Position numbers and translations under genes: made by a program
Source of the DNA: Marinobacter profundi
GTDB lineage: Bacteria > Pseudomonadota > Gammaproteobacteria > Pseudomonadales > Oleiphilaceae
Direction: 5' to 3'
DNA length: 64,000 nucleotides
Assembly (NCBI RefSeq): GCF_002744715.1
Contig: NZ_KZ319368.1
Location: 62,001 to 126,000 of the forward strand
Shown: one piece after another, positions 39,498 to 44,719 of the stretch
Layout of the letters: each line of letters starts with the position of its first letter
How positions within the stretch are numbered: the stretch's first letter is position 1
Notes under the pieces: generated by a model
The model's database searches: none
What the model was told of the DNA's origin: nothing
What the model saw: the letters and a program-made list of their open reading frames with translations, nothing else

Positions 39498-40529
39498 TCA
39501 TACCGATTCTCCCGGTTGTGCTACGGCAGCCGCCGGCTCTCCGGTGCGACTGCCATATGCCGCAACAGTAGCCTCCCGGGGCCGCTCAAGGCCGCAGGTG
39601 GCCAGTGCCCGCAGGCAGCGCTGGACGTGAAGCTGGCCATTATCCGGCTCAATTGTCTGGCCCGGGAGGCGGAGTCCGAACGCCGCATTGCCGTTTGCCC
39701 GAGCGATAACCAGCGAGGTCAGGTAACTGAGCCGCAGCTCCCGGTCAACGCCGCTAAAGGCGTCGTAATCCAGCCAGTGCGGACTGCCCTGCTCACCTTC
39801 CCAGTCGGCAATAACCATATCGCCGGTGCGGGCAAAACGCTTCCAGAGCACTCGCTGGGACATGTCGCCCTGCCGCCAGGGCCGCAGATCGGCGTGGTCC
39901 TGGCCCTCTGTCTCACGGGTTTCATCCACCTCACCATCATCCACCACGGAACTGCCCACTTCCGGCGCGGCGATTGGCCGGGGGTACACCAGCCCAGCGG
40001 AGGCAGGTCGCAGCCAGGACCAGGCCACCAGCAAGCCAAACGGAAAACGGGTTTCCACCCGGATTCGCGTCGGCACCAGATATCCGCGGGCGCGGGAAGG
40101 CACCAGCACCTGCATGTCCAGCGGCTTACCCGCCAGCACATGCTGCTGGTCCACCCGGGTCTGATCGTGGCTCAGAGTGATCGCCAGTGCGTCGTGATTC
40201 GGCGCCGATGCCCGGAAGACGAACGGGATGGCGTCCCCGGCGAACCCTTCCCCGGCTTTGACAAGCGTGATCTGCAGGCCGGTCAGGTTGCGGTGGGTCT
40301 GGTGCATCGCCGCCACGAACACCGTCCCCAACAGAAAGGTAAGCAGGTAGATCAGGCTGTTCTGATAGTTGATTCCGGTCAGCAGCATGACCAACAGCAG
40401 CAAACCGAACACGACACCGGCAGCGGACGGCAGAATGAAGATGTTCTTCTGCCCGAATACACGGGTATCGTCGCGGGGAACCCGCCGATCGACCCAGTTC
40501 TGCCAGTAGGCGGTTACTGCTTTCAACAT
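39498..40529 (-). CDS. DUF58 domain-containing protein
   Basis: The protein is 343 residues from ATG 40529, chosen because AAGG lies 7 bases upstream; an ATG five codons earlier (40544) is the alternative. Two membrane helices (about 35-80, GVVFGLLLLVMLLTGI and SLIYLLTFLLGTVFVAA) precede a DUF58 (von Willebrand A-like) domain with VYPRP and the family hallmark LRPWRQGDMSQRVLWKRFARTG. DUF58 proteins usually work with a MoxR AAA+ ATPase. No moxR is found here: upstream is a divergent gene for an exported protein. Confidence 0.9.
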   Translation of the reverse strand: MLKAVTAYWQNWVDRRVPRDDTRVFGQKNIFILPSAAGVVFGLLLLVMLLTGINYQNSLIYLLTFLLGTVFVAAMHQTHRNLTGLQITLVKAGEGFAGDAIPFVFRASAPNHDALAITLSHDQTRVDQQHVLAGKPLDMQVLVPSRARGYLVPTRIRVETRFPFGLLVAWSWLRPASAGLVYPRPIAAPEVGSSVVDDGEVDETRETEGQDHADLRPWRQGDMSQRVLWKRFARTGDMVIADWEGEQGSPHWLDYDAFSGVDRELRLSYLTSLVIARANGNAAFGLRLPGQTIEPDNGQLHVQRCLRALATCGLERPREATVAAYGSRTGEPAAAVAQPGESV

Positions 40530-40730
40530 AAGCTGCCTTATCATCCTGAACGGAAATGCCTGCCACGGTATCAGACAATACCGGACATCCACGGATATCG
40601 ATCACAAACCCGGCACCACGCGCTTGAAAACCCCTGGCCTGAGGCGAATACTTTAACAAATACGGGACGCTCTGACTGACGTTTGTTCAGAAGTGCCTCT
40701 GACACCGGACGCAGACAAAGAGGCCTGACC

Positions 40731-41357
40731 ATGAGCCTGACCATCAAGCACCAAACCGCACTGGGGATCCTTCTGGCCGGCGCCGCAGGCACGCCCGCAC
40801 TGGCCGGAGTGCAATCCCTGTCCCAGGAAGAAATGGTAGACACCTACATCAAGGATTCTGCGGTAATCATCGTACCGAGGGAAAAACGCAAGTCAGAGGC
40901 CGACCGGCGACGGATCATCCGCGCGCTGACCATTTCTCCGGGCGAACCGGTCATCAGCGAAGCCGAAGAGGAAGCGGACCGCGATGCCCTGCAACGCTAT
41001 CTCGAGGAGAGTAATGAAGATGCCCTGGCCGCTGCGGAAGAAGAGTTTATCCGCAAGGCCCTGCTGTTGCCGACGGATCAGCTGAGCCAGGTAGTGCCCC
41101 CCGTCGACTTTACCCCGCTGATTCCGCCGATCATTTTCGGCCAGCAAGCCGAAGTTCCCGAGGAACCCTTCACCCAGACTTTCCTCAACGACCAGCTCGG
41201 CCTGGCCTTTGATGGCCAGAATCTGACCTTTTCAATCGGCAACCCGCCCGGCATTGACCAGATCAGACTGCCACAAGGCATCAACGAGGGACCGATCCAG
41301 CTGACACCGCGGCCCGGCGGCGGGTTCGACCTGTCAATTGCGGTGCCCGAGCAGTAA
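40731..41357 (+). CDS. Uncharacterised exported protein (208 residues)
   Basis: I do not recognise this protein. The ATG at 40731 has GAGG 8 bases upstream and starts a signal peptide (about 1-26, ending TPALAG). The mature protein has a charged N-terminal part with KRKSEADRRRIIRAL, an acidic helical stretch (EEEADRDALQRYLEESNED), a Pro-rich centre (VVPPVDFTPLIPPIIF) and a C-terminal part ending TPRPGGGFDLSIAVPEQ. No cysteine is present. It is convergent with a DUF6160 gene and divergent from the DUF58 gene, and has its own terminator. Confidence 0.7.
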   Translation: MSLTIKHQTALGILLAGAAGTPALAGVQSLSQEEMVDTYIKDSAVIIVPREKRKSEADRRRIIRALTISPGEPVISEAEEEADRDALQRYLEESNEDALAAAEEEFIRKALLLPTDQLSQVVPPVDFTPLIPPIIFGQQAEVPEEPFTQTFLNDQLGLAFDGQNLTFSIGNPPGIDQIRLPQGINEGPIQLTPRPGGGFDLSIAVPEQ

Positions 41358-41383
41358 CAGCCCGAGCCTTCCTGTCGATTGCG

Positions 41384-41413
41384 ATGCCGGAGCAACAGTC
41401 TCCGGCATTTTTC
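41384..41413 (+). terminator. Rho-independent terminator after the 208-residue exported protein
   Basis: A 9-bp perfect stem (41384-41392 with 41400-41408) with a 7-nt loop is followed by TTTTTC. It begins 27 bases after the stop codon. Confidence 0.85.
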
Positions 41414-41462
41414 TGGTCAGTTGTCGGTCATCGTTACGGACTTTTTGCTGGTTATCCGCTGT

Positions 41463-41496
41463 AAAAAAAAACGCCCCGCAATTGCGGGGCGTTTCT
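41463..41496. terminator. Terminator palindrome after the DUF6160 gene
   Basis: A perfect 22-bp palindrome (41471-41492), extended by A/T pairs, is flanked by a run of nine A on the left. On the minus strand this gives a strong stem plus U tract, placed 22 bases after the DUF6160 stop. On the plus strand TTTCTT follows, so it may act both ways. Confidence 0.9.
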
Positions 41497-41517
41497 TCAG
41501 GCGGGGTTCAGGTCAGA

Positions 41518-42363
41518 TTAGTGACCGTATACCGCCAGCTTGGTGTTGGTGATTGCCAGGTTGTCGATGGCAAGGGAACCAATGGAGGTACCGCCGATCT
41601 CGACCCCACCGATGGCCATATCCAGGTAGACGTTGTTCACGTCAACGCGGAGCACATCAACGGCGGTGGATGCGCCCAGGCCTACGCCCTTGTAGACATC
41701 CAGGTTAACCGCAGCGAACATACCCGCCGGGGTGGTCGGAGCAGCGCTTCCGCCGCCAGCAACACTTGCCGCAACCTCTTCGAAGAACGCAGCGCCCATG
41801 ACCTTCATGTCACGGATACCGATGCCCATGAACTCAACATCGAAATCCATGTCGACAACGTTGAACGCGGTGGCGATATTCAGGTGGTCAGTTGCGGTGT
41901 CCACGGTGATATCCAGCTGCGCCAGGTTACCGTAACCACTCAGGTTGGAAATCAGGGTGGTGCTGTCGGTACCGGTGGAGCCGGCCAGCAGCTCCATGGA
42001 GCCCACGGTCATACCCCAGTCGATGGGAAGCCCATCAAGGGTGCCCACGTGGATGCTGGCGTCACCGTCATCCAGTACGTCGATGTCAATCTTCAGCTGG
42101 TCCAGCAGAGTGTTGTAACCTGCAGCCGCGCCGTCGGCTGTCACACCGGCACCACCAAGTACGATGTTGTTAACCGCGAAGGAGCCTTCGTCGGTGTACT
42201 TGAACTGACCGATGCTTACCTGGGTTTCCAGCTCGATGGTGACACCGGCCTGACCGGTGACGTTGCCCATGGCGCTGTCATTCATGGCTTGCAGTTCCGC
42301 GTGAGCGGCGAACGGTGCGGCAGCAACGGCGGCTACCAGAGCGATTTTCTTCAGGCCTTTCAT
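41518..42363 (-). CDS. DUF6160 family exported protein (FilA-like)
   Basis: This protein of unknown function is related to the putative pilus-system protein FilA of Acinetobacter. The protein is 281 residues. A signal peptide (1-22, ending AAHA) is followed by the family hallmark LQAMNDSAMGNVTGQAGVTIELETQ. The rest is a long run of short beta strands rich in Gly, Asp, Val and Ile, such as IGQFKYTDEGSFAVNNIVLGG, with no cysteine, like a surface beta structure. It has a strong ribosome site (AAGGAG), a long leader with a hairpin, and a powerful terminator, all suggesting high, monocistronic expression. Confidence 0.82.
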   Translation of the reverse strand: MKGLKKIALVAAVAAAPFAAHAELQAMNDSAMGNVTGQAGVTIELETQVSIGQFKYTDEGSFAVNNIVLGGAGVTADGAAAGYNTLLDQLKIDIDVLDDGDASIHVGTLDGLPIDWGMTVGSMELLAGSTGTDSTTLISNLSGYGNLAQLDITVDTATDHLNIATAFNVVDMDFDVEFMGIGIRDMKVMGAAFFEEVAASVAGGGSAAPTTPAGMFAAVNLDVYKGVGLGASTAVDVLRVDVNNVYLDMAIGGVEIGGTSIGSLAIDNLAITNTKLAVYGH

Positions 42364-42418
42364 TCTTATCTCCTTATAAACCCGTTTTGTTGTTATCCGG
42401 GCCTTATTGGTTTTGTGT

Positions 42419-42437
42419 GTGGGGCGTCTTACCCCAC
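42419..42437 (-). promoter_or_regulatory. Small hairpin in the DUF6160 gene leader
   Basis: A 6-bp GC stem (GTGGGG with CCCCAC) with a 7-nt loop lies about 55 bases upstream of the start codon. It may stabilise the leader mRNA or help control translation. Confidence 0.4.
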
Positions 42438-42488
42438 GAATCCATTTAAGATTGTTTTACAGTCTGGTTCCGTGACTCCATTCACAGT

Positions 42489-42518
42489 TATTTACCGGCC
42501 GGTTACGAGCTGAAACAA
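42489..42518 (-). promoter_or_regulatory. Candidate sigma-70 promoter for the DUF6160 gene
   Basis: On the minus strand, TTGTTT (-35 like, 42513-42518) and TAAATA (-10 like, 42489-42494) are separated by 18 bases, about 125 bases upstream of the start codon. This was read by eye only. Confidence 0.3.
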
Positions 42519-42538
42519 ACGTCGAAAAGTTCTCATTT

Positions 42539-43153
42539 TTAGCCGCCAGATGCGGGTAAATCACCGCGATCGTCGTAAAACATCTGGAACGGCTTGTCCC
42601 GGGTCACCGCCTCACCAAAGGCCACGGTGCCGGCCTCGACCTGGTAAGGCACGATTTTGTTGCCGGAGATACCCAGGCGATGTTCGTGCTCGATGACCAG
42701 CACACGGGTGTCACTGTCCGCATCCACCTTGCCGGTATAGAGAATCACCGCCGCGTGGATCTTGCCCCGGCGGGCGATGGATTTGAGAGCCGCCCGGTAC
42801 ATCAGGATCTTGACGTTGGCGGGGGCGTCGACCGCCTGACCGTCCAGGTTGAGCTGCTTGATGGTCTTGCCATCCTCGAGCAACATCCAGGCCGCGGGCA
42901 CGGGCGTCGCCGCTGCACCCAGCCCTGCGGTATATTCATCAACCGCCTGCTCGGTCAGCTTGACCAACTGCTGCTGACCGGCAACCGCAGCAACCGCCAG
43001 CTCCTCGCGGGTGAGCTTGCCGTCAGCCAGCGGATCGTAGGGCTGACTGGCGGGCGAGCCGGCTTCCTCGGCCGCCGCGTAGGGCCCAGGCAGTGCAAGG
43101 AGGGCAAGCAGGGCAAGGGTCAGACTACGGGTAAGGGATCTTGTTATTGGCAT
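42539..43153 (-). CDS. Uncharacterised exported protein (204 residues)
   Basis: I do not recognise this protein. A signal peptide (about 1-28, with LALLALLALPGPYAAA) starts at an ATG with AGGAA 6 bases upstream. The mature part has DGKLTREELAVAAVAGQQQLVKL, a Met-rich middle (MLLEDGKTIKQLNLDG) and a basic segment (MYRAALKSIARRGKIHAAVILYTG) followed by HEHRLGISGNKIVPYQVEAG. No cysteine is present. It lies between the DUF6160 gene, same strand, and divergent pabB. The candidate DUF6160 promoter sits just after its stop. Confidence 0.7.
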   Translation of the reverse strand: MPITRSLTRSLTLALLALLALPGPYAAAEEAGSPASQPYDPLADGKLTREELAVAAVAGQQQLVKLTEQAVDEYTAGLGAAATPVPAAWMLLEDGKTIKQLNLDGQAVDAPANVKILMYRAALKSIARRGKIHAAVILYTGKVDADSDTRVLVIEHEHRLGISGNKIVPYQVEAGTVAFGEAVTRDKPFQMFYDDRGDLPASGG

Positions 43154-43351
43154 GGTCGTTCCTGCTGATTCTGGAGAGATTTCCTCAGTTCGGCCGGCGC
43201 AGTCCGGTGAGAACTCCGGTAAAATACCGTGCTATCACGCCAGGATAACCGGGCCAGCCCATTGGCCTTTCATTAGATCAGCGGGTATCTCCCGGCAGCA
43301 ACGCCCGTTTTGTGCCCTGATTATCATTCTTTCAAATTGACCGAGGATGTT

Positions 43352-44719
43352 TTGAGCCTGTCCACTGTGCCACCGCTATCCGAACTCGATCACCCCCGGT
43401 TCCTCCGCCTGCTGGAGTGGAGCAGCCGCGAACCGGATTTTGCGTTTCTTGGCAGCCTGGGAGCCGGAATGGAGCGTGGGCGCTACACGGTGTTTTCTGC
43501 CCTGGCCACAGCAAGCCATGACATTCCCGCCGGCGACGACGGCTCATCCACCGGCCGCGCCCATCGCCTGGAACCGGATATGGCCGCCACCATGGCGCCC
43601 TATGGCGACAGTTCCTGGCCAGAGCACCTGCCGTTTCCGGGAGGCTGGGTGGGCGTTATCAGCTATGAATACGGTTACCTGACCGAAAAACGGCTGGCGC
43701 CGCTGGCCCCGGCGATGCCCTACCCGCTGTTCAGCGCCCGCCTCTACCTGTGGTGCGCTTGGCAAGACCGCAAAGAAGGCAGCTTCCACCTCTGGATCCA
43801 CCCCGGCTGCCCGGCAGACCAGCGAGCGCAGATCGAGCACTGGCTGGGTAACCCGCCGGTCAGCAACGACCGCCACTGGCAGCTCACCGACCCGTTCCAG
43901 CCCCGCCAGCCCCACGAAGCGTTTCTCGCCAGCGTGCGGAATATCCGGGACTATATCGAGGCGGGGGACTGCTACCAGGCCAACCTGTCACAGGAATTTG
44001 AGGGCCGCTACCAAGGTGAGCCGTGGCGCGCCTTCACCGAGCTCACCGCAGCCAACCCTACCCCCTACGCGGCGTTCCTGCGCACGGGCGAGTGGAGTGT
44101 GCTGTCGGTTTCCCCCGAGCGCTTTCTGGAGATTCGCGAGGGGGTTGTCCGCACCAGCCCCATCAAGGGCACCCGCCCCCGCGGCGCGACGCCGGAGGCG
44201 GACCAGCAGCTCGCCGCCGAGCTGTGCAACTCCGAGAAGGACCGGGCAGAAAACCTGATGATCGTGGACCTGCTGCGGAACGACCTGAGCCACTATGCCA
44301 GGCCCGGCAGCGTGGTGGTCGAGGAATTGTTTGCCCTGGAGTCTTACCGCAATGTCCATCACCTGGTAAGCCATATCCGGGCCGAGCTGAACGACGGCAT
44401 ATCCCCGATGGCGGCATTGCTGAGCGCCTTTCCGGGAGGCTCCATTACCGGAGCGCCGAAAGTCCGCGCCATGGAGATTATCCGGGAGCTGGAACCACAC
44501 TGGCGCGGACCCTATTGCGGGTCGGTGTTTTACTGGGGGCTGGACGGACGGCTGGACAGCAGCATTGCGATCCGCACCCTGCTCTGCAACAGCCGTGACC
44601 GGTCGATAAGGTGCTGGGGGGGCGGTGGAATCATCGCCGATTCCGATCCAGAGGGGGAGTACCAGGAAACGCTGACCAAGGTCAGGCCGTTGATGGCCTT
44701 CCTGGAAAGCCTGCGGTAG
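43352..44719 (+). CDS. pabB: Aminodeoxychorismate synthase component I
   Basis: It converts chorismate to 4-amino-4-deoxychorismate for folate, together with PabA. The protein is about 455 residues from a TTG start at 43352, supported by GAGGA 5 bases upstream; no in-frame ATG lies before the conserved region. The chorismate-binding domain shows GDCYQANLSQEFEG, VLSVSPERFLEI, SPIKGTRPRGATPE near 268, RAENLMIVDLLRNDLSHY and SITGAPKVRAMEIIRELEP near 363. PIKGTRPRG, with Lys in place of Ala, is the PabB-type active-site lysine and separates it from TrpE. Confidence 0.93.
   Translation: MSLSTVPPLSELDHPRFLRLLEWSSREPDFAFLGSLGAGMERGRYTVFSALATASHDIPAGDDGSSTGRAHRLEPDMAATMAPYGDSSWPEHLPFPGGWVGVISYEYGYLTEKRLAPLAPAMPYPLFSARLYLWCAWQDRKEGSFHLWIHPGCPADQRAQIEHWLGNPPVSNDRHWQLTDPFQPRQPHEAFLASVRNIRDYIEAGDCYQANLSQEFEGRYQGEPWRAFTELTAANPTPYAAFLRTGEWSVLSVSPERFLEIREGVVRTSPIKGTRPRGATPEADQQLAAELCNSEKDRAENLMIVDLLRNDLSHYARPGSVVVEELFALESYRNVHHLVSHIRAELNDGISPMAALLSAFPGGSITGAPKVRAMEIIRELEPHWRGPYCGSVFYWGLDGRLDSSIAIRTLLCNSRDRSIRCWGGGGIIADSDPEGEYQETLTKVRPLMAFLESLR

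Follow-up and report, generated by a model that had tools for sequence, protein, structure and literature searches.

Three genes for exported proteins in Marinobacter profundi, here called A, B and C, lie between two genes of presumed DUF58 and pabB type, and probably encode the subunit and the accessory proteins of a surface fibre (pilus) of the Fil type, with filB, filC, filD and a lipoprotein gene about 220 kb away. They are located in the window, the whole stretch of 64,000 nucleotides that was analysed (contig NZ_KZ319368.1, positions 62,001 to 126,000), at 40731..41357 on the forward strand (A, 208 residues), 41518..42363 on the reverse strand (B, 281 residues) and 42539..43153 on the reverse strand upstream of B (C, 204 residues). 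An earlier reading of the letters without database searches (the sequence-only reading) had given these positions and sizes, which the re-read open reading frames bear out, along with the lack of cysteine (0 in A, B and C) and the signal peptides, as all three N-termini are signal-peptide-like when judged by eye. Its suggestion that the trio could contribute to a surface fibre or to an envelope system akin to the fil genes of Acinetobacter is supported, as the gene order is kept, the trio tracks filB-filC-filD and a solved relative of B is pilus-like. Computed homologies, gene order, joint loss, conservation of a leader and the first residue of a deposited chain make up the case, and the best reading is that the Marinobacter trio is the pilin locus of a variant of the little-studied Fil fibre system, in which export depends on a peptidase of the C39 type and on a channel resembling FapF.

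A FilA-like DUF6160 protein and unlinked fil genes

The middle gene had been assigned to DUF6160, with which a match of B to Pfam PF19657 agrees (E 2.1e-37, 127.7 bits at a gathering cut-off of 27). B also aligns over residues 3-281 to the NCBIfam model for FilA (NF050077, E 1.9e-10), at 40.7 bits, below the curated cut-off of 220. Its structural model is a single confidently folded beta protein (predicted local distance difference test score, pLDDT, 85), for which Foldseek found nothing among solved folds at E 0.001.

The window's genome (G000) encodes relatives of FilB (a C39 peptidase, E 1.2e-81), FilC (FapF-like, 6.7e-102) and FilD (FadL-like, 1e-164) consecutively with a lipoprotein at C2:325.7-330.4 kb, on the same contig as the trio, each below the NCBIfam curated cut-off (475, 630 and 970 bits, respectively). 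FilB matches Pfam Peptidase_C39 with 69.3 bits at a cut-off of 22, and its catalytic His and Asp are invariant in 35/35 sequences, as are Gln and Cys, both of which the search pattern requires. The lipoprotein in the place of FilE (L211:6694-7836, G000:C2) contains DUF4124 and MalM domains and matched no NCBIfam model. The Fil genes of this genome are therefore not in one operon, occupying two loci around 220 kb apart. G127, which belongs to another family within the order, has a single fil-like cluster beside pabB-thrH-cysH, as at the site of the trio, its operon comprising FilF-, FilD-, FilC- and FilB-like genes, a gene for an unassigned 324-residue protein in the place of FilE and four DUF6160 genes.

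Gene order, co-occurrence and joint absence

The slot of the trio is bordered on the left by the DUF58-type gene (39498..40592, reverse strand) and on the right by the pabB-type gene (43310..44719, forward strand), the latter being also the neighbour of the fil locus of G127. A scan of named genomes gave 102 loci with a gene for an A relative, the locus of M. algicola DG893 being among those found; in the best 80, of which 73 have Marinobacter in the title, the order A forward, B reverse, C reverse is kept in 76, with one B gene in 68 and two in 8. Co-occurrence of the three genes is conserved and their association accordingly not refuted, as three of the four exceptions are contig ends (L224 and L246 stop just past A, L289 inside B) and the true one is L293 (Halospina), where B is more distant and C was not detected by profile. 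The slot is variable in the family's other genera: DUF6160 may be present in multiple copies, A and B may be separated by exported proteins of large size, or A adjoins the DUF58 gene without B, as in L099, L105 and L110. The exported proteins of 820-898 residues found between A and DUF6160 genes in other genera (L102:8528-11059, L109:6098-8557, L098:2866-5559, L111:2961-5633) appear lipoprotein-like by eye, and the two that were scanned gave weak Calx-beta and SBBP matches; L104 has an 829-residue protein, esterase-like by eye, in this interval.

In one fixed set of 121 family genomes searched for every protein, A was matched in 108 (with fragments only in G006, G062 and G094), B in 107 and C, queried by a single sequence, in 70, while FilB was matched in 112, FilC in 110 (in G013 by a fragment only, 3.5e-30) and FilD in 104 at 1e-60. 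Fourteen genomes gave no match to B (G012, G040, G062, G074, G075, G081, G086, G089, G093, G094, G095, G099, G108 and G120); 12 of these have no match to A, G062 and G094 have fragments of it, and none of the 14 has a strong FilB, FilC or FilD. The weak matches, eight to FilB (1.6e-22 to 3.1e-34) and six to FilC (4.6e-13 to 1.8e-17), all fall into B-less genomes, and G075, the single weak-match genome that was inspected, is of the Fap type. Wherever the slot is readable in the B-less genomes (13/14; in G086 it is interrupted by a contig end), the DUF58 gene directly adjoins pabB and the trio is absent, with the remnants of A persisting in G062 and G094. In a tree built from five proteins of the flanks (2031 columns from 51 genomes), the pattern of absence needs at least 7 changes by Fitch parsimony, a method which cannot separate loss from gain; as A and B are widespread in the family, loss is the likelier event for the 14 genomes. 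In two of them the transglutaminase-type flanking gene seems to be broken, with split matches at G075:C1:3317513-3319508 and G108:C8:588734-590769.

On the level of the class, DUF6160 is present in six of 274 gammaproteobacterial genomes (G000, G127, G130, where the match is under the Pfam cut-off, G258, G330 and G371), and FilC matches of 2.1e-58 or below occur in exactly these six, with 23 further genomes showing FilC matches of 9.5e-25 or weaker. A was found solely in G000 and in none of the 273 other genomes, either by single sequence or by profile. This distribution indicates that DUF6160 travels with the Fil channel and that A is specific to this bacterial family. The link among the three genes, initially regarded as positional, is hence more than that for A and B, which track the unlinked filB-filC-filD, and may still be positional for C, whose co-loss beside B could be passive. 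G258 and G371, of another gammaproteobacterial family, contain 15 and 17 scattered DUF6160 matches besides a strong FilC; these cover mostly the N-terminal 40 residues of DUF6160 in open frames of about 100-270 residues (e.g. L149:8273-8617) and perhaps represent numerous small exported substrates with a common leader.

Protein C

Neither C nor A matched a Pfam or NCBIfam family above chance. The model of C is an alpha/beta fold with a long helix preceding the sheet (pLDDT 84.4), its nearest solved fold being, weakly, the minor pilin 7o5y_D (Z 7.3, root-mean-square deviation 3.5, 103 aligned residues; next Z 5.3); in the comparison with solved folds the best Foldseek E was 0.38 and no VIA row reached a Z of 8. 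By profile, C was detected in all 28 further trio-bearing loci (L311-L338), in 10 of the 20 loci L097-L116, of which L116 belongs to a loss genome and is without C. The 12 loss loci L299-L310, where L304 is truncated at a contig end, all gave no C.

C is probably an accessory factor of the Fil system. The alternative in which B, as the Fil pilin, and A are part of the system and C is a passive traveller beside B is rather unlikely, although worth serious consideration, as C sits between B and pabB, whereby any deletion of the slot will always take C along. Moreover, C diverges fast, as reflected by the single-sequence match in just 70/121 genomes, and, with the loss genome set aside, was undetected in 9 of the 19 loci that represent the trio slot in other or related genera. 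On the other hand, C is exported, shares the strand of B and holds the same place in 76/77 readable named loci and in the 28/28 further ones.

A proposed second leader and the pilus-like 9xfv filament

The N-terminal 38 residues of B (42250..42363, reverse strand) consist of the signal peptide and a second leader that ends with Thr36-Gly37-Gln38, with the cut predicted before Ala39. All three residues are invariant in 49 sequences, while in a broader set of 24 Gln38 is invariant and Gly37 nearly so. The leader displays hydrophobic residues at -15, -12, -7 and -4, a register which we take to be that of C39-cut double-glycine leaders. A leader pattern fits 84/86 proteins, the remaining two having Ala-Gln and row G127_c being a spurious upstream match; the pattern presets hydrophobic residues at -12, -7 and -4 and Gly at -2, so that these counts are not independent. 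The predicted cut site is Gly-Gln in 58/60 distinct leaders, in contrast to Gly-Gly or Gly-Ala of the double-glycine type. Five isolated leaders searched against NCBIfam retrieved no bacteriocin-leader model, only FilA in the case of B; since no leader model matched, the likeness to C39 leaders is one of register.

A DUF6160 profile built from 49 B relatives retrieved a single match at E 10 or below among the PDB sequences, 9xfv (E 7.1e-6), which was re-found with a second DUF6160 profile (E 1.8e-5). The entry, described as 'bacteria pilus (like)', contains 25 chains of 173 residues each, and the model of B superimposes on the structure with a root-mean-square deviation of 2.5 over 96 residues at 24% identity. 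Residue 2 of the 9xfv chain pairs with Gly40 of B, which places residue 1 at Ala39, just past Thr-Gly-Gln38. The structural alignment spans entry residues 38 to 210, which are all 173. This numbering agrees with a subset of the DUF6160 precursors, where the Gly-Gln lies one position earlier, with its Gln at 37 and not 38. The deposited subunit therefore seems to be devoid of the signal peptide and of the segment through Thr-Gly-Gln.

It is unlikely that a protease other than FilB cuts B after Gly-Gln or that the start of 9xfv reflects map modelling and not cleavage. Against these alternatives stand the register of the leader, presumably that of C39 leaders, the presence of DUF6160, which follows FilB, and the deposited sequence and numbering of 9xfv, which both begin at that very point. 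These alternatives draw on the failure of the isolated leaders to fit a bacteriocin-leader model, on the fact that no paper on 9xfv was found in the one open library searched and on the C39 cut sites described in the available passages of PMC5557850, which are Gly-Gly or Gly-Ala, Gly-Gln being absent from the sites given there. Somewhat less probable still is a Fap-like functional amyloid, with B leaving the cell unfolded and forming cross-beta fibrils like FapC, since the kinship of FilB with FapD (1.4e-35) and of FilC with FapF (3.9e-22) is countered by missed cut-offs (122.6 bits against 330 for FapD, 78.6 against 700 for FapF), the confidently folded model of B and the pilus-like label of its solved relative.

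Elsewhere in the window's genome, L144 (G000:C20, 3102-8368) encodes four consecutive exported proteins of 801, 183, 364 and 401 residues beside a gene for a BirA-like and CoaX-like protein (named by eye). Three have DUF6160 matches, and the 364-residue protein, without such a match, bears a similar leader with a Gly-Ala end; these proteins are possible minor or tip pilins.

Protein A

A is acidic and proline-rich, with 32 Asp/Glu, 15 Lys/Arg and 18 Pro per 183 mature residues, and the alignment of its relatives shows an N-terminal block that is conserved and, C-terminally, a motif rich in glycine. Against the PDB sequences its best match was a phage capsid protein at E 0.25. The segment past the signal peptide resembles the leader of B minus Gly-Gln, and hhalign aligned A with DUF6160 across signal peptide and leader with a probability of 53%. 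A was also considered as a leader mimic and as a FilC protein, and both candidates were rejected: scored with a DUF6160-leader matrix, A did not stand out against 204 exported-like control open reading frames, with 0.04 to 0.55 of the controls exceeding A (25 A sequences), and hhalign gave a probability of 0.1% for FilC. We propose A as a dedicated Fil accessory factor; as a guess by analogy with FapA, it might act as a chaperone or gate.

Proposed assembly and relation to known systems

Several observations weigh against the placement of the trio in a Fil system. With regard to 9xfv, the matched segments are the two chain ends, individually weak (0.045 and 1.6), and the entry was not detected with B alone or two single relatives as query; the structural match has a Z of 4.7 at rank 42, with beta-barrel rows higher at large root-mean-square deviation, and the sequence and structure alignments are concordant N-terminally and discordant in the C-terminal half. 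The Gly-Gln site likewise departs from the described C39 sites. B, FilB, FilC and FilD all miss the NCBIfam curated cut-offs, which look to have been set for Acinetobacter, and FilF was not seen in the stretches of the window's genome that were read, no genome-wide search for it having been made. G017, G024 and G030 (74, 85 and 97% complete) possess A and DUF6160 without FilB, FilC and FilD, and G014 (88% complete) possesses all the others without A. The B query in the loss genomes was one sequence, so that distant DUF6160 paralogues could remain there. The co-loss of A, B and C is expected of adjacent genes; this expectation does not extend to their recurrent absence together with genes at a distance of 220 kb.

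For the Fil reading we infer the following on FilB as the protease, on the route of export, on how B polymerizes and on what A and C do. B, a FilA-type pilin, would cross the inner membrane by Sec, whereupon its second leader would be cut after Gly37-Gln38 in the periplasm, most likely by the C39 peptidase FilB. Mature B, with a beta strand first at Ala39, would leave through the FapF-like FilC with the participation of FilD and polymerize as a filament. A may be a dedicated helper in the periplasm or at the cell surface, perhaps chaperoning as FapA does in Fap, and C a folded helper or minor component. It is an even call whether Fil fibres constitute a separate class of pili, in which folded pilins carry a Sec signal and a second leader, a periplasmic C39 peptidase cuts after Gly-Gln, the freed N-terminal beta strand polymerizes past a FapF-like channel, several leader-bearing subunits are encoded per genome and lineage-specific proteins such as A and C control assembly.

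The resemblance to Acinetobacter Fil (FilA-FilF; A1S_0690-0695) consists in the end-to-end alignment of B with FilA and in relatives of FilB, FilC and FilD in one genome, whereas the Marinobacter genes lie in two loci, with A and C in addition and all models under the curated cut-offs. With Pseudomonas Fap (fapABCDEF) the system shares a C39 peptidase and an outer-membrane channel related to FapD and FapF, but the subunit is unrelated and predicted to be folded, the FadL-like FilD is additional and the FapD and FapF cut-offs are missed. The 'Pilus-like-alpha' filament 9xfv from a karst cave, the sole PDB match of the DUF6160 profile, starts after Gly-Gln but has 173 residues compared to 243 in mature B.

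FilA of Acinetobacter Tol 5, found by mass spectrometry, is named as a subunit of the Fil pilus in the available passages of PMC11784438; from this protein and 9xfv we infer that B forms extracellular filaments. Fil fibres recur in Acinetobacter biofilm proteomics, with FilF increased in pellicles (excerpt of PMC3203104) and FilC and FilF in the biofilm of SDF (excerpt of PMC8792954), while A1S_0690-0695 are given as 'putative type III pili' in the accessible part of PMC4256060. DUF6160, in the accessible part of PMC11687729 merely named within a list and of previously unknown function, is now connected with a peptidase of the C39 type and a channel like FapF; an exact, testable predicted cleavage site is supplied for B, and two protein families, A and C, are added. 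In the one open library searched, neither an account of Fil fibre assembly nor a connection of Fil with Fap was found.

These findings bear on the question of the FapD substrate. Fap is also the subject of PMC6173800 and PMC3792158, as far as their accessible text goes. Passages of PMC5557850 describe the Fap peptidase as periplasmic and required for secretion, those of a 2018 review give its substrate as not yet determined (PMC6173800), and those of a 2025 review state that FapD is only thought to process FapE and FapF, and describe FapA as a disordered chaperone (PMC12822426). The Fil-less genome G075 contains a Fap-type cluster (L216, 5876-10731) with FapF-like and FapD-like proteins and a large low-complexity exported protein. 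Beside the FapD-like peptidase a 252-residue protein with a IHRDEMGEMRGGF motif in the presumed C39-leader register is a candidate FapD substrate.

Expression signals

High and controlled expression, as deduced in the sequence-only reading from a promoter, a leader hairpin, ribosome sites and terminators, was not borne out. Two promoter-like sites were found against 0.8 +/- 0.9 expected by chance, one of them within B. The upstream stretch of B, 147 bases long, has an ordinary structure (z -1.7, with 5/200 shuffles equally stable); with promoter-like sites near chance and no unusual structure upstream of B the claim on expression is therefore not upheld. A search of the whole window for tRNA genes found none. 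Sequence inspection shows stretches that resemble ribosome sites before B (AAGGAG) and C (AGGAA), the one before A being weaker. As to the two powerful terminators, one stands, a palindrome on the 3' side of B between the convergent A and B (41455..41505, reverse strand; -32.1 kcal/mol, z -7.3), followed by a U run on the strand of B, while the terminator-like hairpin of A itself (41383..41409, forward strand) is weaker (z -2.6).

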